Source of the DNA: Pseudomonadota bacterium
GTDB taxonomy: Bacteria > Desulfobacterota > Desulfobulbia > Desulfobulbales > Desulfurivibrionaceae
NCBI GenBank assembly: GCA_018830485.1
Contig: JAHJRQ010000015.1
Coordinates: forward strand, 186,001 to 250,000
Length of the DNA stretch: 64,000 bases
Direction: 5' to 3'
The stretch's first letter is position 1. Each line of letters begins with the position of its first letter. A program made the translations under genes and the position numbers. Below are positions 5,373 through 47,208 of this stretch, piece after piece. A model generated the notes under the pieces. That model had not been told where the DNA came from. It did not search any database and saw only the letters and a list, made by a program, of their open reading frames with translations.

Positions 5373-7487
5373 ATGAAGAAATCAGTCTGGAGCATGTGCG
5401 GCATGTGCACCGTTCGCTGCCCCATCCGGGTCGAGGTCGAAGACAACACCGTGACCTGGCTCGAAGGCAACCAGCACATCCTGAAAGGCGCTCTCTGCGC
5501 CAAGGGGTCGGCCGGCCCTGCCCTGGTGGCCGACAAGGAGCGCCCCCAGCAGCCGCTGATCAGACGCGGCGGCCGGGGAGCAGGCCGCTGGGAAGCGGTG
5601 AGCTGGGAGTTCGCCCTCGACTATATAGCGGACAAGCTGAAAACCATCATCGACCGCCACGGACCGGAGGCGATCATGGCCAGCTCCAGGGGCGGCCCGT
5701 TCCAAGACCTGGTCAAGGCCTTTACCCATGCCCTGGGCTCCCCCAACTACACCGATCACGACAGCGCCTGCGGCCGGAATGTGCACCACGCCAGCATCTC
5801 GCTCTTCGGTTTGGGCCGCAAGGGGTTCATCTACGACATCAAAAACGCCAAGCATCTGGTGCTCTTCGGCCGCAACATCCTCGCCTCGCTTCGCCCGGCC
5901 GAGGTCAACCAGGTCATGGACATGCTGGACAAGGGCGGCAGGCTCACCTATGTGGATGTGCGCCAGACCCTGACCGGGATCAAGGCCACCAATTTTTTCC
6001 AGGTGCGGCCCGGCACGGATTACGCCCTGGCCCTGGCCCTGATCCACGAGATCATCAAGGCCGATGGTTACGACGCGGAGTTCGTGGAGCGCTACACCAC
6101 CGGTTTTGACGAACTGGCCTACTTCGTGGAAAACTATTCGGCGGAATGGGCAGCCAAGGAATGCGGCATCAAGGTCAAGGACATCCACGAACTGGTCGGC
6201 CAGCTCATCGCCGACCGGCCCAAGGTTGTCTTCCACCCGGGCTGGATGCTCTCCCGCTACAACGACTCCTTCTACGCCAGCCGCGCCTTGAACTGCCTCA
6301 ACGCCCTGATGGGCAACATCGAGGTCGAGGGCGGCCTTATCTTTGCCAAGGGCGCCGGGGACTGCGGCGGCAAAGGGCCGCGCAGCCTCACCGAGCTCTC
6401 GCCCAAACCCACCGCCAAACGAGCCGACGGGGTGGGGGACGTGTACAAACAGTTCGAGAAAGGCCCAGGGCTGTTCCATCTTTTCTACAAGGCCATGGCC
6501 ACGGCGCAACCGTATCCGATCAAGGGGATCATCTGCGTCCGCCACGATCCATTCTCCTGCTTCCCCGACCCGCAGGCGCAGAAGGAGGCGCTGGACAACT
6601 GCGACCTCATCGTCTCCATCGACACCCATTACAGCGAATTCGGCTGGTATGCCGACGTGATCCTGCCCGAGTCGACCTATCTGGAGCGCGACAGCATGAT
6701 CGCCCTGCAAAAGGGGATGAAGCCCAGAATGATCATGCGCAGCAAGGCCATCGAGACCCAAGCCGACACCCTCTGCCTTTGCACCATCATCAAGGGGCTC
6801 GCCACCCGGCTCGGGCTTGACCAGTATTTCCCCTTTAACACCGTGCGGGAATTATGGGAGTGGCAACTGGAACCCACCGGCTTTACCCTCGCCGACTTCG
6901 AGAAGAAAGGGTTTGTCGAATACGCGGACAAGCCGGTGCTCTACGACCGGGACAAGCTGGAAGGCAAGTTCAAGACCCCTTCGGGAAAGATAGAAATCAT
7001 CAGCCAGAAGCTCGATGAATGGGGGTTCCCCTCCTGGAAGCCCTACGAAAGTCCGGCAAAACCGCCGAAAGGCCAGTACCGCCTAGTGTTTGGCCGCTCG
7101 CCGCTGCACGCCCACAGCCACACCATCAACAATCCGCTGCTCAACGAGCTGATGCCGCAGAACACTCTGTGGATCAACACCAGGGAGGGGGGCAAGATGG
7201 GAATCGCCGAGGGGGATCTCGTCGATGTCATCTCCGGGGATGTCACCAGCGTGGTCATCGCCAAGCTGACCGATTTCATCCATCCCGAGGCGGTCTATAC
7301 CGTGCATGGGTTTGGCCGCCAGATTCCCTTGCAGACCAGGGCCTACCATGCGGGCATGAGCGACCAGAAGCTCATGAAGGGCCAGTTGCAGAACATGGAC
7401 CCCGTGGGCGGCGGACTCAACCTCTGCGAAACCTTCGTCGCGGTGCGCAAAAGCTCCAAAAATCATCAACGGAAGAGGGAACTATGA
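5373..7487 (+). CDS. Molybdopterin oxidoreductase catalytic subunit, polysulfide/thiosulfate reductase-like, cytoplasmic
   Basis: 704 residues; ATG 5373 with AGGAG upstream. Cys9, Cys12, Cys16 and Cys42 form the N-terminal [4Fe-4S] site (CGMCTVRCP...LCAKG). A molybdenum ligand is expected at Cys133 in DSACGRN. The rest shows the DMSO-reductase fold, including HSHTINNP and a C-terminal molydopterin dinucleotide-binding domain (TRAYHAGMSDQ). Length and motifs fit the PsrA/PhsA branch. Unlike periplasmic PsrA/PhsA there is no Tat (RR) signal; the iron-sulfur motif begins at residue 9, so the enzyme should be cytoplasmic. The partner ferredoxin overlaps by four bases and no membrane anchor gene follows. 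Substrate is unknown; a sulfur oxyanion or polysulfide is suggested by the exporter upstream. Confidence 0.88.
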   Translation: MKKSVWSMCGMCTVRCPIRVEVEDNTVTWLEGNQHILKGALCAKGSAGPALVADKERPQQPLIRRGGRGAGRWEAVSWEFALDYIADKLKTIIDRHGPEAIMASSRGGPFQDLVKAFTHALGSPNYTDHDSACGRNVHHASISLFGLGRKGFIYDIKNAKHLVLFGRNILASLRPAEVNQVMDMLDKGGRLTYVDVRQTLTGIKATNFFQVRPGTDYALALALIHEIIKADGYDAEFVERYTTGFDELAYFVENYSAEWAAKECGIKVKDIHELVGQLIADRPKVVFHPGWMLSRYNDSFYASRALNCLNALMGNIEVEGGLIFAKGAGDCGGKGPRSLTELSPKPTAKRADGVGDVYKQFEKGPGLFHLFYKAMATAQPYPIKGIICVRHDPFSCFPDPQAQKEALDNCDLIVSIDTHYSEFGWYADVILPESTYLERDSMIALQKGMKPRMIMRSKAIETQADTLCLCTIIKGLATRLGLDQYFPFNTVRELWEWQLEPTGFTLADFEKKGFVEYADKPVLYDRDKLEGKFKTPSGKIEIISQKLDEWGFPSWKPYESPAKPPKGQYRLVFGRSPLHAHSHTINNPLLNELMPQNTLWINTREGGKMGIAEGDLVDVISGDVTSVVIAKLTDFIHPEAVYTVHGFGRQIPLQTRAYHAGMSDQKLMKGQLQNMDPVGGGLNLCETFVAVRKSSKNHQRKREL

Positions 7488-7936
7488 ACACCTACACCCT
7501 GTATCTCAACAGCAAACGGTGCATAGGCTGTCACGGTTGCGTGGTCCATTGCAAGGCCAACAAGGGGTTGCCGGTGGGGCCTATCCTCTGCGAAATCAGC
7601 CATGAGCGGCTCAAGTCCGTGCGGGGGGTCCCGAAAACCGAGTTCAAGTTCCGCTCGTGCTACCACTGCGAGGACCCCTTCTGCGTCACCATCTGCCCCA
7701 CCGGGGCGATGAAAAAACGGGAAGACGGCATCGTCTACGTGGATGCGCCAACATGCATCGGCTGCATGGCCTGCGCCGGCGCCTGCCCCTGGGGCATCCC
7801 CCAGCATAATCCCGAGACCAACAAGGCGGTGAAATGCGATTACTGCATGGACCGTTTGGATGCGGGGCTGCAACCCGCCTGTGTAACCAAATGCACCACC
7901 CACGCCTTAAAGCTGATGACTATGAAAGAGATCTAA
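7484..7936 (+). CDS. Four-cluster ferredoxin-type electron transfer subunit (PsrB/PhsB/DmsB-like)
   Basis: 150 residues; its ATG overlaps the stop of the catalytic subunit (ATGA). The Cys clusters of a 4x[4Fe-4S] subunit are visible: CIGCHGCVVHC, CYHCEDPFCVTICPTGA, CIGCMACAGACPWG and CDYCMDRL...CVTKC. It should carry electrons between the molybdoenzyme and a cytoplasmic donor or acceptor. It lacks the C-terminal membrane helix of some homologues, and no PsrC/NrfD-type gene follows. Confidence 0.92.
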   Translation: MNTYTLYLNSKRCIGCHGCVVHCKANKGLPVGPILCEISHERLKSVRGVPKTEFKFRSCYHCEDPFCVTICPTGAMKKREDGIVYVDAPTCIGCMACAGACPWGIPQHNPETNKAVKCDYCMDRLDAGLQPACVTKCTTHALKLMTMKEI

Positions 7937-36648: not shown

Positions 36649-38577
36649 TTACTGGAGAGGCAGAACCACCCGAACTTCCAGACCGCCGCCCGGATGGGGC
36701 TTGAGGGAAAAACTGCCGCCATGGGCGCGGACAACCCGTTCCACCAGGGTCAACCCCATGCCGGTCCCATAGGTTTTCGTGGTGAAAAAGGGATCCTTGG
36801 CCTTATCCAGATAGAATTCAGGGATCCCGGGGCCGGTGTCGAGGACCGAAACAACGGCTTGCCCTTCGGCGACGGAAACGAGGATGGTCAACCTGCCCCC
36901 ATCGGCCATGGCCTCCACCGCGTTCTTGAACAGATGGAGAAACACCAGGCGGATCTGGTGCATGTCTCCCGGGACCACCGGCTCCACCGGGGGACATTCC
37001 ATCTCCCAGGTAACGCCGTGTTTCGTCATGCTCGACTGGAGCAGGAGAGCCGTCTTCCTGATCAGCTCGCAGAGCGAGAGCTCCTCCTTGTGGATCTCGC
37101 CCTGCCCGACAAAATCAAAGAGATCCTCCAGGGTGGATTCCACCCGCTCCGTTTCGTGGATGATGACATTGAGATATTTTTCCCACTCGGCATCGACATT
37201 TTTTTTCTTCAGGATACGGGAGACCCCGCCGATGGAGGTGACCGGGTTCCTGATGATGTGGACCAGCTGGGCGGCCATGTGACCCAGGGCGGAATACCGC
37301 TCCGCCTCGACCAGCAGGTCCTTGTTCCGGTCAAGCTCCTGGTTGGTCGCCTCAAGCTCCGCCACCTTCTGCTGCATCTCGTTGTACAGATGACTCTGTT
37401 CGATGGCAAGGCTGGCCTGGCTGGCAAAAAGCTCCAGGGCGCCGACATGGCTGTCTTCAATGAACCGCCGGGTCACATAATTGTCGGCGATAATCACCCC
37501 GAAGGCCCGGCCGGGAGAGTACAGCGGCACCACGACAAAGGCATCCTCGTCAAGGATATTGATGAGACCCCTGGGCACGCCAAGGTCGGGGAACCTAGCC
37601 TCCGTCCTGTCCCTGCGCTCACGAACCCTACCCCCGTTGTGCCTCCTGTTATTTCCGAGGCGCCGCTCAATGGGCATCGGCACCCAGGCGTTTTCCGGCG
37701 AAACCCTGAAGCTCCTCCGGCTCAGCACGGAATTGATCAGGATATTGTCGGTATCCTCGGCCGAAACCACCAGATTCCTGACTATGGCATTGACCGCCGC
37801 ATCATGGCTCTTGCTGGTTTCCTTGAGATTGTCAACGATCTCCAGAAAATTAAGATCCCGCTCCTCGATCTCCTCCCAGACCCGCCCCGCCTCCTCCCGG
37901 GAACTCGGGCCGATGGCCATCTTCCCCCGCAAAAACCGGCGATCCGCATCGAACATAAGCAAAAACGCCCGGTTGAAGCCCAAACCTTCCCGGGAGGTGA
38001 TCCCCACCAAAACCGCGCGCAGGATCTGGTCGAGCTCCACGGTGCTCAGATAGACGCTGTTCATCTTCACCGACAACTGATGCAGGAGCTGGATTCTGAA
38101 ATGCGCCTCCTCCAGCTCCTCATGGTATTTGCGGTTTTCAAATACCAGCCGCCGCTTTTCCAGGGCCTTGCGCGCCACATGGAATATTTCCTCGAACTGC
38201 ACCGGCTTGGACAGATAGTCCGTGGCGCCCTTGCGCATGCAGTCCAAAACCACCCGCAGCTCGGAGACACCGGTGAGCATCACCACCGCGGCATCGGGAT
38301 ATTGATCTATGATTCGGGGCAGAAGGGAGAGGCCATCGGTGTCAGGAAGACCGATGTCAAGAAGGACCAGGGCCACGTTGCGGGAGGCCAGCACCTGCAG
38401 AAGCGCGGTCGCCGAAGCGCATTCCGCCACGGCCAGTCCATGCTCTTCGAAATAGATCCTGAGCGGTTCGCGGATTGCCGCATCATCATCAACAATGGCG
38501 ACAACCTCGCCGTTTTGCAGCAGTTGCCCCAGAGAAAGAGAGACATGGTGGTGTAACCCGGAAACCGCCTCGACCAT
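36649..38577 (-). CDS. Receiver-GAF-histidine kinase signalling protein
   Basis: 642 residues. Receiver domain first (acidic pocket VDDD at 29-32, Asp74 in LVLLDIG), then a GAF-type domain of about 200 residues with a long basic insertion (ERRLGNNRRHNGG), a coiled segment, HisKA with His440 in LVHIIRNPVTSIGG, and an ATPase (FLHLFKNAVEAMADGG, LDTGPGIP, GTGMGLTLVERV). ATG 38577 is taken as start; GTG 38586 is possible. The receiver at the N-terminus suggests it is itself phosphorylated by another kinase. Confidence 0.9.
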   Translation of the reverse strand: MVEAVSGLHHHVSLSLGQLLQNGEVVAIVDDDAAIREPLRIYFEEHGLAVAECASATALLQVLASRNVALVLLDIGLPDTDGLSLLPRIIDQYPDAAVVMLTGVSELRVVLDCMRKGATDYLSKPVQFEEIFHVARKALEKRRLVFENRKYHEELEEAHFRIQLLHQLSVKMNSVYLSTVELDQILRAVLVGITSREGLGFNRAFLLMFDADRRFLRGKMAIGPSSREEAGRVWEEIEERDLNFLEIVDNLKETSKSHDAAVNAIVRNLVVSAEDTDNILINSVLSRRSFRVSPENAWVPMPIERRLGNNRRHNGGRVRERRDRTEARFPDLGVPRGLINILDEDAFVVVPLYSPGRAFGVIIADNYVTRRFIEDSHVGALELFASQASLAIEQSHLYNEMQQKVAELEATNQELDRNKDLLVEAERYSALGHMAAQLVHIIRNPVTSIGGVSRILKKKNVDAEWEKYLNVIIHETERVESTLEDLFDFVGQGEIHKEELSLCELIRKTALLLQSSMTKHGVTWEMECPPVEPVVPGDMHQIRLVFLHLFKNAVEAMADGGRLTILVSVAEGQAVVSVLDTGPGIPEFYLDKAKDPFFTTKTYGTGMGLTLVERVVRAHGGSFSLKPHPGGGLEVRVVLPLQ

Positions 38578-38755
38578 TAGAAACACCCTGCGGACAATAA
38601 ATGCTGCGCCTCGGCATGAGGATTGAGGCCCGTCACACTATCCCTTCCGGTCCAGGCCATGGCAGCAATGAGAAACTCGATTTAAGCGCGTTGCCCAAGG
38701 TGCCGTTCCGCGCTTCAGCATGGCAGAATTATTTTTTTCGCAACGGCCTACGACA

Positions 38756-38827: not shown

Positions 38828-38867
38828 AAAAAAAATCGCATTCCCCGAAACAGCCGGGGAATGCGAT
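38828..38867 (-). terminator. Intrinsic terminator of the YeeE/YedE gene
   Basis: ATCGCATTCCCC (38835-38846) pairs perfectly over 12 bp with 38856-38867; the A-run at 38828-38835 supplies the U-tract on minus. Confidence 0.9.
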
Positions 38868-38905
38868 CCATCATCACCCATGCCGAACCAGCGGCATGAT
38901 GAACG

Positions 38906-40168
38906 TTACATCTCAACCATCAACTTGCCGGTATCCTCGTTCCAACTGACAATGAGGTACCAGAGGCACATGGCCAGCGCAATCACCGCCAGGGTGCCGC
39001 CGTATCCCAAAAAGGTGTCCGGCATGTAAATCCATTGACCCAGCAGTCCGCTTTCCTCGGCAGTCCCTTCCCAGGCCCATTCCCTAACCATCGGGGTCAG
39101 AATGGCATTGGACACGCCGAAGGTGATAACGGCCAGCCAGAGCTTGACCTGGCCTTCGCCTACTCGCCACAGGGTTCCGGTACCGCAGCCGCCGGCCAGC
39201 ATGGCGCCAAGCCCGAAGACAAGCCCGCCGAACACCGCGCCAAAACCGAAGGTGCCGCGCACATAGTGCACCGGCTCCCGCAGACCGGTGGCCTTGACCA
39301 CCGCAATGCCGACGGCAAGGAGCAGGATGCTCACCATGACACCCTTTGCCATGTTGATATTCCCGGTCATGTGCGGTTCACGGAAGGCCTGGACCATGCA
39401 CCAGCGTCCGCGCTGCATGGTATAGCCGAGCCCTGCTGCGATGAGCAGCAGACCGCTCAAGCCGCCGGCGATGCCAAGATATCCGTCCTCGGCGAGATTA
39501 TCATAATCCGCCATATAAATGACCTGATCCCCATAGGCATAGGCGCCCCAGATCAAGCCGACCAGGGCCAGAACGCCGAGAATCCTCCGCATGACCACCG
39601 GAACCTCGATGGTCTTGGCGCCTCCGGCCCCCCAGGTGATGTTCTCCATCTCCCAGTAGATGTACTTGAGGCCGAGAATCACGCCCATTATCAATCCCAG
39701 CCACATGGCAAAGCCATTGGCGGCCAGATTGCCGATGGCGTTGTACATGCCGCCAACGTTGCAGCCGCCGGCAAAAACGGACCCGATGCCCATAAGCACA
39801 CCGGCCACCAGCCCCTTGACCGTCTCCAGGACCGGCGGGATGCGGATGTCGAAATTATCGCCCAGGTTGGCGGACAAAAAGGCCCCGGCCACAAAACCGA
39901 TGCCGATCACCGAGCCGGTGTCGAGCAGGGCGCTTTTGGGAGCGGCAGCCTCCCACAGGCCGATGGTATCCCACAGGCCGAGCCCGTAGATGATCCATTC
40001 CCCCCAATTCCGGATGGCCCCAACCGCACCCCACGGCCGAGCCCAGACCAGAGCCAGCACGCTCAAAAAGGCGACGATCATCCCCGCCGTAACGGGACTC
40101 CACTCCTCCTTGCACATCTTGTTATACAGCTCCCTGGCCTTGCTCCCCATCACGCTTTCTTCGCCCAT
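38906..40168 (-). CDS. yedE: YeeE/YedE-family sulfur compound transporter
   Basis: 420 residues from ATG 40168 (GGAGG upstream). Around ten membrane helices in two repeats. Each repeat carries the signature with a buried Cys: VFAGGCNVGGMYNA and MLAGGCGTGTLWR; a third site is QRGRWCMVQAFRE. YeeE imports thiosulfate by passing it along conserved Cys residues. This protein faces a divergent tusA-dsrE operon and is probably a sulfur-anion importer feeding TusA. Confidence 0.9.
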   Translation of the reverse strand: MGEESVMGSKARELYNKMCKEEWSPVTAGMIVAFLSVLALVWARPWGAVGAIRNWGEWIIYGLGLWDTIGLWEAAAPKSALLDTGSVIGIGFVAGAFLSANLGDNFDIRIPPVLETVKGLVAGVLMGIGSVFAGGCNVGGMYNAIGNLAANGFAMWLGLIMGVILGLKYIYWEMENITWGAGGAKTIEVPVVMRRILGVLALVGLIWGAYAYGDQVIYMADYDNLAEDGYLGIAGGLSGLLLIAAGLGYTMQRGRWCMVQAFREPHMTGNINMAKGVMVSILLLAVGIAVVKATGLREPVHYVRGTFGFGAVFGGLVFGLGAMLAGGCGTGTLWRVGEGQVKLWLAVITFGVSNAILTPMVREWAWEGTAEESGLLGQWIYMPDTFLGYGGTLAVIALAMCLWYLIVSWNEDTGKLMVEM

Positions 40169-40306
40169 TCCAGACCTCCTCTCCCATTTTTTTTGCAAAT
40201 CATTACAAAACGATAGCCTGCCATCCAAAAAAACGAAAAGCCCGTTGCAATTATCAAAACTATGCCGCGAATGTACCGATACCACCCTTTACCCGTGCCT
40301 TAAAAT

Positions 40307-40324
40307 TTTGTCAAGTTTGACAAA
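40307..40324. promoter_or_regulatory. Inverted repeat upstream of yedE
   Basis: TTTGTCAA and TTGACAAA separated by GT, a perfect eight-bp dyad that includes a TTGACA -35-like element on minus. It lies about 140 bp ahead of yedE and could coordinate the divergent genes. Confidence 0.45.
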
Positions 40325-40633
40325 CCATTTCCCTGATTCGCCCCCCGTCTCCCCAAAGCATCCATGCCTCCATACTCCATAATCTTCTTGAATTATGGCC
40401 TCTTTTCCTCCCTGTCGCACCATGAATTACCATTCACAAATTCCCTTGACATGCCCCATGAATATTGGTAGAGACCCAAAGGTACACGAAAGAGCCTGCG
40501 TATTTTTCTTTGTGTCAAAAAACCCGCCACGCGTGGCGGGATCCGAGTTGCCGTGCATAATTCACTGGCGCTTGTTTCTTATTTTTTTTGAGTTTGCAGA
40601 ATTACCCCTACACCCTTTTTTATGGAGGAAACC
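40325..40633. other. Remainder of the yedE-tusA divergent intergenic region
   Basis: Contains TTGACA at 40446-40451 with a weak -10 (TAGAGA) 17 bp on, and the perfect 18-bp palindrome CCCGCCACGCGTGGCGGG at 40523-40540 about 95 bp before tusA. The palindrome may be a terminator-like hairpin in the tusA leader or a binding site. No gene is seen. Confidence 0.4.
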
Positions 40634-40894
40634 ATGAGCGACAATGTCACAGTAGCCCCCGATGGTATCACCCCGACCCGCACCCTGGATGCAAAAGGCC
40701 TGAGCTGCCCCATGCCCCTGTTGCGCACCAAGAAAGAGATGGACAAGATCAACGCCGGCGAGATCCTGGAGATCCTCGGCACCGATCCCGGCTCCCGCAA
40801 CGACCTGCCCGGCTGGTGCACCCGTTCCGGCCACACCTACATGGGCGAAAAGGAAGATGCCGGCTTCTTCCGCTTCTACATCCAGAAAAAATAA
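40634..40894 (+). CDS. tusA: TusA-family sulfur carrier protein
   Basis: 86 residues; ATG 40634 with TGGAGG upstream. The sulfurtransferase motif is GLSCPMPLLRTKKEM with active Cys25, which carries a persulfide. The rest has the TusA beta-alpha fold (ILEILGTDPGSRNDLPGWC), with a second Cys. First gene of the plus-strand cluster. Confidence 0.95.
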   Translation: MSDNVTVAPDGITPTRTLDAKGLSCPMPLLRTKKEMDKINAGEILEILGTDPGSRNDLPGWCTRSGHTYMGEKEDAGFFRFYIQKK

Positions 40895-40965
40895 GCTTTT
40901 TTACTCCACACGACGCGGCCGGGGCACAAGCCCCGCGTCTTCAATTTTGCATCAGGAGACAGGAA

Positions 40966-41280
40966 ATGGCTAAAAGTTTAGGTATTTTTGTTACCTCCCC
41001 CCAGAACATGCGCCATGTCATGGGGATCACCACGGCCGCCAAGGCCAAGGGCTCCAAGGTAAAGGTTTTCTTCACCTGGTACGGCGTTCATCTGACCAAA
41101 TGCAAGGAGTTTTCCTCCCTCTGCGAACTGGCGGACGAAGTGTCCATCTGCGTGGACAGCTACAAGAAGAGCGGCTACGATCCCGCCGATATCCCCAAGG
41201 GTCTTGAGGCCAAGGACATGGCCACCCAGGGCCAGCACGGGGCGATCATCGAAGACTACGAATGCTACCTGACCTTATAA
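40966..41280 (+). CDS. DsrE-family protein
   Basis: 104 residues. DsrE-like opening LGIFVTSPQNMRHVMGITTAAKAKGSKV (shown in parts: a Rossmann-like strand, helix, strand). Cys46, Cys53 and Cys62 fall in the region where DsrE/TusD hold their active Cys (VHLTKCKEFSSLCEL). It should accept or donate sulfane sulfur with TusA. GGAGAC and AGGAAA precede ATG 40966. Confidence 0.85.
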   Translation: MAKSLGIFVTSPQNMRHVMGITTAAKAKGSKVKVFFTWYGVHLTKCKEFSSLCELADEVSICVDSYKKSGYDPADIPKGLEAKDMATQGQHGAIIEDYECYLTL

Positions 41281-41290
41281 GGAGAAAACC

Positions 41291-41605
41291 ATGTCCAAGA
41301 AAGTAGGCTTTCTGCTGGTAAACAAGGATTACACCCTGGACGGCATTCGCTCCGCCCTGGGATTGGCTGTCGAGAACATGTACGCGTATGCCTATGTTCT
41401 GAACAACGAATTGACCGACGTAAGCGACTACCACAAGGAAAACATCGACTGGATCCGCGACATGGAAGGCGAGGTGTACACCACCGTGGACGCCAACGTC
41501 GAAAATCTCGGTCTGGTCAAGACCTCCCTTGAGGAGATCGGCCAGCAGTTGCGGGACCTCGATTTCGTTATTCCTTACGGCATCATGCGCTCCGACAAGA
41601 GCTGA
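41291..41605 (+). CDS. DsrE/DsrF-like protein without cysteine
   Basis: 104 residues, ten bases after the previous gene with GGAGAAAA as ribosome binding site. The fold resembles the DsrE/DsrF type (KKVGFLLVNKDYTLDGIRSAL, AYAYVLNNELT), but the protein has no Cys at all, so it cannot itself carry sulfur. A structural partner role, like TusC/DsrF, is inferred. Confidence 0.7.
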   Translation: MSKKVGFLLVNKDYTLDGIRSALGLAVENMYAYAYVLNNELTDVSDYHKENIDWIRDMEGEVYTTVDANVENLGLVKTSLEEIGQQLRDLDFVIPYGIMRSDKS

Positions 41606-41642
41606 GATAATTATTGATCAATCAACAATAAGGAGTGTTCCA

Positions 41643-41816
41643 ATGAAACTCTTGAATGTATATCGTTCCGAGCCCAATGACGACACCAAGAAGCTGGTGG
41701 AGATCGTCTCCGAGGGTCGCGATGCTGAATCCTTTGATCTCAACGTTGAGAGCCCGGACTACAGCGCATTGGTGGATAAGGTTTTCGCGGCCGATCAGAC
41801 CATCTGCTGGTGGTAA
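41643..41816 (+). CDS. Small protein of the tusA-dsrE cluster, possibly DsrH/TusB-like
   Basis: 57 residues; AAGGAG precedes ATG 41643. The ends recall a shortened TusB/DsrH: it opens LLNVYRSEP (TusB: LHTLHRSP) and closes ICWW (TusB: MAW), with Cys55 near the C-terminus where DsrH has its conserved Cys. The similarity is read by eye and could be chance. Confidence 0.65.
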   Translation: MKLLNVYRSEPNDDTKKLVEIVSEGRDAESFDLNVESPDYSALVDKVFAADQTICWW

Positions 41817-41851
41817 GCAAGATTTTTTCAGCCCATGCGGACTGAAGCACG

Positions 41852-41882
41852 TCCCTGGCCGTCATCGGCCGGGGATTTTTTT
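41852..41882 (+). terminator. Intrinsic terminator of the tusA-dsrE operon
   Basis: CCCTGGCCG and CGGCCGGGG pair around TCAT with one mismatch, followed by eight T's. Confidence 0.85.
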
Positions 41883-44746: not shown

Positions 44747-45406
44747 ATGCCTCCAGTCATCGCATTCATCGGCAAGCCCGACTCCGGCAAGACCACGCTT
44801 CTTGAGAAGCTCATCCCGGAACTGCGGCGCCGCGGCTACCGCATCGGCACCATCAAGCACCATGTCCATGCCTTTGAAATGGACAAGCCCGGCAAGGACA
44901 CCTGGCGCCACAAGCAGGCCGGCGCCAATACCGTGGCCCTCTCCTCACCCACCGGCCTGGGAATCATCCGCGATGTGGACGAAGATCCGGCCATCGAGGA
45001 GCTGGTGGGCCGCTATTACGGCGATATCGACCTGGTCATCGCCGAGGGCTACAAGCGGCTGAGCCTGCCCAAGATCGAGGTCTTCCGCAGCGCCCAGCAT
45101 GAGGCTCCCTTGCCGAACCGGGATGACACCTGGGTCGCCATGGTCAGCGACACCGCCGGGGTCGCTGATCTCCCCTGCTTCGGACTGGAGGATGTCGCCG
45201 GTCTGGCGGATTTTCTGGAGGAGCGGTTCATCACACCCTTTGCCAAGCAAAAAACCAGCCTGCTGGTCAACGGTCAGCCCGTTTATCTCAATGCCTTCGT
45301 GGAGAGCTTCCTCCGCCAGGCCATCACCGGCATGACCTGCTCGCTCAAGGGGTGCCAGGATCCCCGGGAGATCATCATCACCATCCGCCAGGACCTGCCG
45401 CAATGA
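44747..45406 (+). CDS. mobB: Molybdopterin-guanine dinucleotide biosynthesis adaptor MobB, with C-terminal extension
   Basis: 219 residues versus about 170 in E. coli. Walker A is GKPDSGKTTL; TIKHHVHAFEMDKPGKDTWRH (split here by eye) and VIAEGYKRLSLPKIEV are MobB signatures. The last 55 residues (SLLVNGQPVYLNAFVES and SSLKGCQ-like text) form an added domain seen in some anaerobe MobB proteins. Works with MobA to make the guanylated cofactor needed by enzymes such as the one at 5373. Confidence 0.9.
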   Translation: MPPVIAFIGKPDSGKTTLLEKLIPELRRRGYRIGTIKHHVHAFEMDKPGKDTWRHKQAGANTVALSSPTGLGIIRDVDEDPAIEELVGRYYGDIDLVIAEGYKRLSLPKIEVFRSAQHEAPLPNRDDTWVAMVSDTAGVADLPCFGLEDVAGLADFLEERFITPFAKQKTSLLVNGQPVYLNAFVESFLRQAITGMTCSLKGCQDPREIIITIRQDLPQ

Positions 45407-46002
45407 GCCAGCGGATTGCCCAGGTTGCCGGGGTGATTCTGGCGGGGGGCAAAAGCTCGCGCTTCGGGAGCAACAAGGCCCTGGCCCTCCACCAGGGCGA
45501 CGCCCTGGTGGAGGGGATCAGCCGCAGGCTTGCCGCACTGTTTCCGGAAACCCTGCTCATCACCAACACACCCGAGGAGTACGGGTTTCTCGGCTGGCCC
45601 ATGGCCAAAGACCTCTATCCTGATTGCGGCCCCCTGGCCGGCATCCATGCCGCCCTGCGCACGGTTTCCCAGCCCCGCATCTTTGTCTGCGGCTGCGACA
45701 TGCCGCTGGTCAATCCGGACCTGATCCGTTTCCTCTGCGAGCTGGAAGGCGGCCATGACATCGTGCTGCCCTGGCTGGACGAGGGGCCGGAGCCGCTCTA
45801 CGCGGTGTACAGCAAAAAAGCCCTGCCGATTATCGCGGAACAGCTCTCCAATAAACAATACAAGATCGGCAGGTTGTTCGACACATTGCGCATCCGCAAG
45901 GTTACACCCGAAGAGATCTTGCGGATCGTGCCGGATCTCACCACCTTTCAGAACATCAACCACCAGCATGACCTTGCCCGTCTTGCCGCCATGGGGGTGT
46001 GA
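45403..46002 (+). CDS. mobA: Molybdenum cofactor guanylyltransferase MobA
   Basis: 199 residues; the ATG overlaps the mobB stop (ATGA). Nucleotidyltransferase motif GVILAGGKSSRFGSNKAL and the metal-site ICGCDMPLV-type text (FVCGCDMPLVNPDLI) are present. It transfers GMP to molybdopterin. Confidence 0.94.
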   Translation: MSQRIAQVAGVILAGGKSSRFGSNKALALHQGDALVEGISRRLAALFPETLLITNTPEEYGFLGWPMAKDLYPDCGPLAGIHAALRTVSQPRIFVCGCDMPLVNPDLIRFLCELEGGHDIVLPWLDEGPEPLYAVYSKKALPIIAEQLSNKQYKIGRLFDTLRIRKVTPEEILRIVPDLTTFQNINHQHDLARLAAMGV

Positions 46003-46005
46003 GCC

Positions 46006-47208
46006 ATGCCGACCCTCTCGCTGAAAGAAGCGCAACACCGGATTGTCCGCCACTGCTCCACCCTCGCCGCGGAGGAGGTTGCCCTTTCGGAGGCCGCTGG
46101 CCGCATTGCCGCGCAAGCGATCAAGGCGACCCGGGCAGTGCCTGACTTCGCCCGTTCCGCCATGGACGGCTATGCCGTCAACAGCCTTAACCTGACCGGC
46201 GATACTGTTCCGGTATCTTTACAGGTAACCGGCGAGATTGCCGCTGGCGCCACCGATCTGCCACAGCTTACCGGGAAAAACGCCATCGCGATCATGACCG
46301 GCGGCGCCTTGCCTGCCGGGGCGAATCAGGTTGTTCCCTTTGAGCGCTGCCAAAGAAACGGCTCCGCGGTGCTGGTGGACACTCCGCCCCGCCCCGGCGC
46401 CTTCATCCGCGCCAGAGGCGCGGACCTGGGAGCCAAGCAAACCATTGTCCGGGCCGGGGCACGAATCGAGCCCCAGCACCTGCCGCTCCTGGCGGAAAGC
46501 GGGCTACCCCGGGTTTCCGTGGTTGGCTGCCCGGAGCTGGCCATCATCTGCACGGGCAGCGAATTGCTCGATACCGTCGATACCCCGGAGGCCGGCCAGA
46601 TCGTCGGCGGCAACCGTTACCTGCTCGCCGCCCTCATCCAGGGCGCCGGGGCAACATCCCGCGATCTTGGCCTGGTGGCCGATGACTGCGCCCGGATCGT
46701 CGCCTTACTCAAAGAGGCCCTGCACGGCCCCTCCCACGGGGTGTTTACCACCGGCGGCATGGGTCCGGGCAACTACGATCTCCTGCCCCAGGCCTTTGCC
46801 AAACTCGGCATTCGCCCTGTGTACACCGCCCTGGCGGTCCGCCCTGGCCGCTCCACCATGTTCGGCCTCTACAACAACAAGCCGGTCTTCGCCCTGCCCG
46901 GCCCGCCGCCCGCGGTTTTCCTGCTGTTCCACGAGCTGGTCCTGCCGGCCCTGCGCGCCATGCAAGGGCTATCGCGTCCCTTGCCCCCCCTGGCGCGCGC
47001 CACCCTCGCCACCCCCGTAACCTTAAAAAAAACCGGGCTGCTCAACCTCAAAGGCGCGGTGGCCAAGCTCAGCGGCAAAACACTCACCGTCCGCCCCGCA
47101 GGCAAAAACGAGCCGGCCAACGCCATCATCCATCTGCCGCCCAACCGGAAGCATCTGCGGGCCGGGGAGGATGTCTCCCTGCGCCTCTGCACCTCCGCCT
47201 TTTGCTAA
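46006..47208 (+). CDS. moeA: Molybdopterin molybdenumtransferase MoeA
   Basis: 400 residues, three bases after mobA. MoeA motifs: VPDFARSAMDGYAV, IMTGGALPAGANQVVPFE, TGSELLDTVDTPEAGQIVGGN (read in parts) and GPGNYDLL, FALPGPPPAVFLLF. It inserts molybdenum or tungsten into adenylylated molybdopterin. Completes a mobB-mobA-moeA operon. Confidence 0.94.
   Translation: MPTLSLKEAQHRIVRHCSTLAAEEVALSEAAGRIAAQAIKATRAVPDFARSAMDGYAVNSLNLTGDTVPVSLQVTGEIAAGATDLPQLTGKNAIAIMTGGALPAGANQVVPFERCQRNGSAVLVDTPPRPGAFIRARGADLGAKQTIVRAGARIEPQHLPLLAESGLPRVSVVGCPELAIICTGSELLDTVDTPEAGQIVGGNRYLLAALIQGAGATSRDLGLVADDCARIVALLKEALHGPSHGVFTTGGMGPGNYDLLPQAFAKLGIRPVYTALAVRPGRSTMFGLYNNKPVFALPGPPPAVFLLFHELVLPALRAMQGLSRPLPPLARATLATPVTLKKTGLLNLKGAVAKLSGKTLTVRPAGKNEPANAIIHLPPNRKHLRAGEDVSLRLCTSAFC

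Follow-up and report, generated by a model that had tools for sequence, protein, structure and literature searches.

Does the possession of a YTD gene cluster mark a bacterium as able to disproportionate sulfur? The mechanism of bacterial sulfur disproportionation is not settled, and two papers from 2026 differ over the YTD cluster of Umezawa et al. 2020 (as cited in PMC12998232), which in sulfate reducers could be a sign either of disproportionation or of sulfur oxidation in general. The initial annotation of the DNA analysed here (a stretch of 64,000 nucleotides, hereafter the window) recognised a YTD-like cluster and took its presence as a hint that the organism can disproportionate elemental sulfur or thiosulfate.

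Organisation of the cluster

The span 38906-41816 comprises precisely the five YTD genes (Table 1). Coordinates, strands and family matches bear out the arrangement first annotated, with yedE divergent from tusA-dsrE-chpA-chpB; the terminator placed behind the tusA arm is present as a hairpin, with a second hairpin behind yedE besides, and the two small conserved-looking genes, chpA and chpB, do recur in related loci. Successive genes of the tusA operon are separated by 71, 10 and 37 bp, and a GGAG-like ribosome-binding site precedes each of the five genes. The DsrE-like protein matches PF02635 weakly (E value 0.0015, under the curated cut-off), the chpA and chpB products returned no accepted family in family searches, and an Rfam search of the cluster region returned no RNA family.

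Table 1. Features of the YTD locus (window positions) and of the MOLY cluster elsewhere in the same genome
Feature	Position	Strand	Remarks
Receiver-GAF-HisKA-HATPase gene	36649-38586	-	conserved neighbour, possible regulator
Terminator-like hairpin 3' of yedE	38833-38869	-	longer than the hairpin 3' of chpB
yedE/yeeE, sulfur transporter, YeeE/YedE family	38906-40168	-	420 aa; PF04143, E value 7e-43
Divergent promoter region, yedE/tusA	40169-40633		465 bp
tusA, sulfur carrier	40634-40894	+	86 aa; CPMP motif (Cys25); PF01206, E value 1e-25
dsrE-like, read as DsrE of DsrEFH type II	40966-41280	+	104 aa; invariant Cys62
chpA, probably DsrF-like subunit (DsrE fold)	41291-41605	+	104 aa
chpB, probably DsrH-like subunit	41643-41816	+	57 aa; conserved in 42 loci
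Terminator-like hairpin 3' of chpB	41851-41876	+	
MOLY cluster	contig C26, about 59.7-63.4 kb (L123 5690-9391)		chaperone, Tat PhsA-like molybdoenzyme, FeS protein

The yedE-tusA promoter region also contains a perfect 18-bp palindrome, TTTGTCAAGTTTGACAAA (40307-40324). It was dropped as a candidate operator, its full form being shared only with the nearest relative; one half recurs more widely and can be read as the -35 box of yedE. A few kilobases downstream of the cluster lie mobB-, mobA- and moeA-like molybdenum cofactor genes (44747-47208, +), read by eye.

Identity as YTD and distribution

Thermosulfurimonas dismutans S95 is proven to disproportionate S0, sulfite and thiosulfate (PMC12998232), and its genome likewise carries dsr genes. 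Alignment with this strain returned all five orthologues in the same order (yedE 51 %, tusA 63 %, dsrE 49 %, chpA 52 % and chpB 47 % identity). On the strength of this orthology and shared gene order, the locus is an authentic and ordinary member of the published YTD cluster, as initially proposed. About 100 related loci, that of T. dismutans S95 included, share the five-gene order, which places the cluster far beyond chance. Scanning 84,980 species genomes with ChpA gave 80 loci, and ChpA was present in 35 of 38 relatives of the source genome (25/25 of good quality); wherever the contig is long enough the other four genes adjoin chpA in the same order, with few exceptions for yedE. Orientation varies, yedE being divergent here, in most mesophilic relatives and in nearly all Desulfobulbales-like loci, and co-directional in Thermodesulfobacteria-like loci, as in T. 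dismutans S95. In one genome, MAG_22309_dsfv_022, two YTD loci were seen (L042 and L065, ChpA identity 93 % and 64 %), representing either a second copy or contamination.

The initial annotation regarded grouping of the proteins with homologues from non-disproportionators as evidence against its proposal. Four of the five proteins, however, are nearer to those of Desulfopila aestuarii, a sulfate reducer, than to their counterparts in T. dismutans, and because YTD proteins follow taxonomy, grouping by sequence cannot settle whether an organism disproportionates.

The yedE-proximal kinase gene, which distinguishes this locus from that of T. dismutans S95, has a homologue adjoining yedE in 20 of the 42 YTD loci that are divergent and long enough on that side, an adjacency that reaches down to about 50 % ChpA identity; none was seen in 25 co-directional loci, where the matching-side flank was not measured. 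On the other side of the cluster, an L,D-transpeptidase-like gene (identified by eye) is kept in the four nearest relatives only. As the YTD papers found by literature search make no mention of a histidine kinase, this neighbour is a new detail on YTD loci, and its conserved position suggests that the REC-GAF-histidine kinase may regulate the yedE-tusA module.

A probable sulfur-transfer complex of the DsrEFH type II kind

TusA matches E. coli TusA in the PDB (E value 9e-13) and keeps the CPxP cysteine, and the cysteine motifs of YeeE (C136, C257 and C328) match those of Spirochaeta thermophila YeeE. Cys62 of DsrE (numbered residue 67 in T. dismutans) is invariant across 44 sequences and corresponds to Cys67 of the cable-bacterium DsrE, which has been proven to carry sulfur (PMC13293266).

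Profile searches against the PDB gave only a marginal archaeal DsrE-like chain for DsrE (2qs7, E value 0.09) and only chance matches for ChpA (E value 0.07 or more); hence, we compared folds for ChpA. Its predicted structure (pLDDT 92.5) has a DsrE/TusD fold, with YchN, TusD and the DsrE of DsrEFH among its nearest solved structures (Z 8.6-10.2). ChpB is a small alpha/beta protein with an invariant WW at its end; its fold match to TusB, a DsrH homologue, ranks among unrelated alpha/beta folds (Z 4.5) and is not distinctive, so we read it as probably DsrH from its size, its place in the operon and the published complex. Given the fold of ChpA and the invariant DsrE cysteine, dsrE-chpA-chpB most likely encode a DsrEFH type II sulfurtransferase acting between TusA and DsrC.

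Cable bacteria have a close parallel, the YeeE-TusA-DsrEFH type II system (Electronema aureum GS; PMC13293266, PMC13047784). Going by its published description, it shares a dsrE with the active cysteine, a DsrE-fold second protein, a very small third protein, tusA within the operon and an adjoining yeeE; the present host differs in having a MOLY cluster besides (see below). For the cable-bacterium homologues, sulfur passes in vitro from TusA to DsrE to DsrC and this is lost in C67S, transfer from DsrEFH type II to DsrC is one-way in vitro, and the E. aureum proteins form a 1:1:1 complex that exchanges sulfur with TusA and DsrC (PMC13293266). Two other related systems are DsrEFH type I in Allochromatium vinosum and TusBCD in E. 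coli: they share with ChpA the DsrE-superfamily fold (Z 8.6-8.9) and likewise stand between TusA and an acceptor of the DsrC/TusE type, but ChpA identity is below 10 %, DsrE here lies under the Pfam cut-off and the dsrABD of this organism are of the sulfate-reducer kind rather than the oxidative kind.

Genome context and the MOLY cluster

The source genome (2.89 Mb, 97.9 % complete) shares its family with Desulfurivibrio alkaliphilus AHT2, a species that disproportionates S0. The initial annotation had proposed looking for dsr, apr, qmo and sat elsewhere in the genome, and a dissimilatory set was indeed found: dsrA, dsrB and dsrD; a DsrC that keeps both C-terminal cysteines; aprA; qmoC together with a qmoA-like protein; sat, at the end of a contig; and a DsrK-like protein close to an NrfD protein. 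Contig C10 encodes two more membrane proteins of the NrfD type (L134 5760-6944 and 12561-13754), which may resemble the DsrP homologues known from cable bacteria.

Only four PF00384 molybdoenzymes are encoded. Two of the frames hold an in-frame TGA and are probably selenocysteine formate dehydrogenases; a third, PhsA-like and without a Tat signal, lies in the window (5376-7487, +); and the fourth, on contig C26, is a Tat-signal-bearing PhsA-like enzyme, preceded by a TorD/DmsD-type chaperone and followed by an FeS protein. In T. dismutans these genes stand in the same order and MolyA is 49 % identical to this one, and by identity and order the C26 set is a MOLY cluster, the other leading candidate cluster for disproportionation beside YTD. 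D. alkaliphilus gave no clear MOLY in a homology search, though it disproportionates S0. Adjoining MOLY on C26 are a histidine kinase, a response regulator and a NosL-like gene. The PhsA-like enzyme of the window is paired with a small FeS protein (5376-7936, +) near TauE/SafE-like genes and response regulators, and several relatives likewise have the pair at a distance of roughly 30 kb from YTD.

The PF00384 family search found neither NapA nor NarG nitrate reductase in the genome. Despite this, an NrfA-like multihaem cytochrome is encoded on contig C13 (about 152.6-154 kb; L180 1516-3186, -); its frame is open over 556 codons, an apparent stop being an alignment artefact.

Association of YTD and MOLY with dissimilatory sulfur metabolism

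We sampled 148 genomes spread over the phylum, scoring YTD by chpA and calling MOLY from a MolyA of 46 % identity or more plus its chaperone. In this sample dsrA was found in 79 genomes, YTD in 28 (all with dsrA) and MOLY in 11 (all with YTD). Fisher tests, which ignore relatedness, gave p of about 2e-9 for the YTD-dsrA and MOLY-YTD associations each and 2e-6 within dsrA carriers. Five weaker MolyA-like matches (40-45 %) had no matching chaperone adjoining and no YTD. The strict co-occurrence of YTD with dsrA, and of MOLY with YTD, assigns YTD to dissimilatory sulfur metabolism, with MOLY nested within it. YTD is broad, however, being present in 28 of the 79 dsrA carriers. Desulfosediminicola flagellatus carries both clusters and, according to its description, did not grow by thiosulfate disproportionation, S0 disproportionation not being reported for it. 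Considering this species, and that every good-quality relative of the source genome carries YTD, the cluster is not diagnostic of disproportionation.

Proposed role and alternative explanations

We read the five genes as a YeeE-TusA-DsrEFH type II sulfur-trafficking module feeding DsrC, the likeliest use of which would be in the oxidative half of disproportionation and/or in sulfur oxidation (probability roughly 75 %). This reading builds on the gene identities, gene order, orthology, conserved cysteines, DsrE-like fold of ChpA and genome context observed here. YeeE would import sulfane sulfur, presumably as polysulfide or thiosulfate; TusA would take it on Cys25 and pass it to Cys62 of DsrE; and the DsrE-DsrF(ChpA)-DsrH(ChpB) complex would load DsrC. 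Loaded DsrC would then enter the Dsr pathway, with DsrAB presumably running oxidatively in vivo, and Apr, Qmo and Sat could take sulfite on to sulfate. The module would probably serve alongside sulfate or sulfur reduction in an organism with MOLY and without NapA or NarG, with growth by disproportionation a possible outcome. We infer the route from YeeE to DsrC for this organism as a whole; for homologues, its last two steps have been reconstituted in vitro. Counting against this reading, thiosulfate did not persulfidate cable-bacterium TusA or DsrEFH (PMC13293266), D. flagellatus carries YTD and MOLY but did not grow on thiosulfate alone, and the fold of ChpB does not link it to DsrH.

That YTD is a dedicated marker, so that this organism grows by disproportionation, was the view of the initial annotation, and it is possible, if short of an even chance. 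Novak et al. 2026 reported that every S0 disproportionator in Desulfobacterota and Nitrospirota has YTD, in agreement with the association that the initial annotation gave, but found it also in proven negatives, and concluded that YTD alone cannot serve as a marker (PMC12998232); the presence of MOLY and the kinship with D. alkaliphilus speak for this view, whereas the many YTD-bearing sulfate reducers, the breadth of YTD among dsrA carriers (28/79) and the thiosulfate-negative carrier of both clusters speak against it. Plum-Jensen et al. 2026 found the marker reading poorly supported and preferred general sulfur oxidation (PMC13293266); on this view YTD would mark not disproportionation but the oxidation of sulfide or sulfur by way of a reductive Dsr pathway run in reverse, with electrons passing to an external acceptor. 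We hold this second view tentatively, as a minority reading. It accords with the one-way transfer to DsrC, with the coupling of sulfide oxidation to nitrate in D. alkaliphilus and with the NrfA-like cytochrome, but nitrate is an unlikely acceptor given the lack of NapA and NarG, and in Desulfolithobacter the YTD proteins were more abundant during thiosulfate disproportionation than during sulfate reduction (PMC9751629). The two views overlap, as S0 oxidation is half of disproportionation. Far less probable is a system for thiosulfate uptake and assimilation like YeeE-YeeD (TsuA-TsuB) of S. thermophila, with DsrE-like helpers and unrelated to energy metabolism. The adjoining YeeE- and TusA-family genes and the conserved cysteine motifs are common to both systems, yet the halves of the transporter align in swapped order, three extra DsrEFH genes are present here, and scores fall far under the NCBIfam cut-offs (TsuA model, 95.5 of 645 bits; YeeD, 19.2 of 147.5 bits); the strict co-occurrence of YTD with dsrA (28/28) and the failure of thiosulfate as donor for the homologues in vitro also argue against assimilation.

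For the trafficking module that we favour, the question of whether its host disproportionates sulfur is separate, and here we put the chances as roughly even. The complete YTD cluster, MOLY, dsrABD, dsrC, aprA, qmo, sat and the presence of D. alkaliphilus in the family weigh in favour; the commonness of YTD in relatives and in dsrA carriers, and its occurrence in D. flagellatus, weigh against. Together, YTD and MOLY make sulfur disproportionation plausible without proving it, and with MOLY also in the genome the hint is better founded than the initial annotation could know. More speculatively, and in our view rather unlikely, YTD and MOLY may be two arms of one S0 pathway, in which exported MolyAB would activate or split extracellular sulfur, YeeE-TusA-DsrEFH type II would carry the product on to DsrC, and the module would be under the control of the REC-GAF-histidine kinase.

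Implications

The genome brings in a genus of the D. alkaliphilus family, represented largely by MAGs, that carries both leading candidate clusters for sulfur disproportionation. The nesting of MOLY within YTD, and of YTD within dsrA carriers, gives testable expectations as to the carriers able to disproportionate, and the neighbouring kinase gene offers a handle on the regulation of YTD. Should YTD and MOLY indeed be two arms of one pathway, the genus would represent a largely uncultured group of S0 disproportionators.
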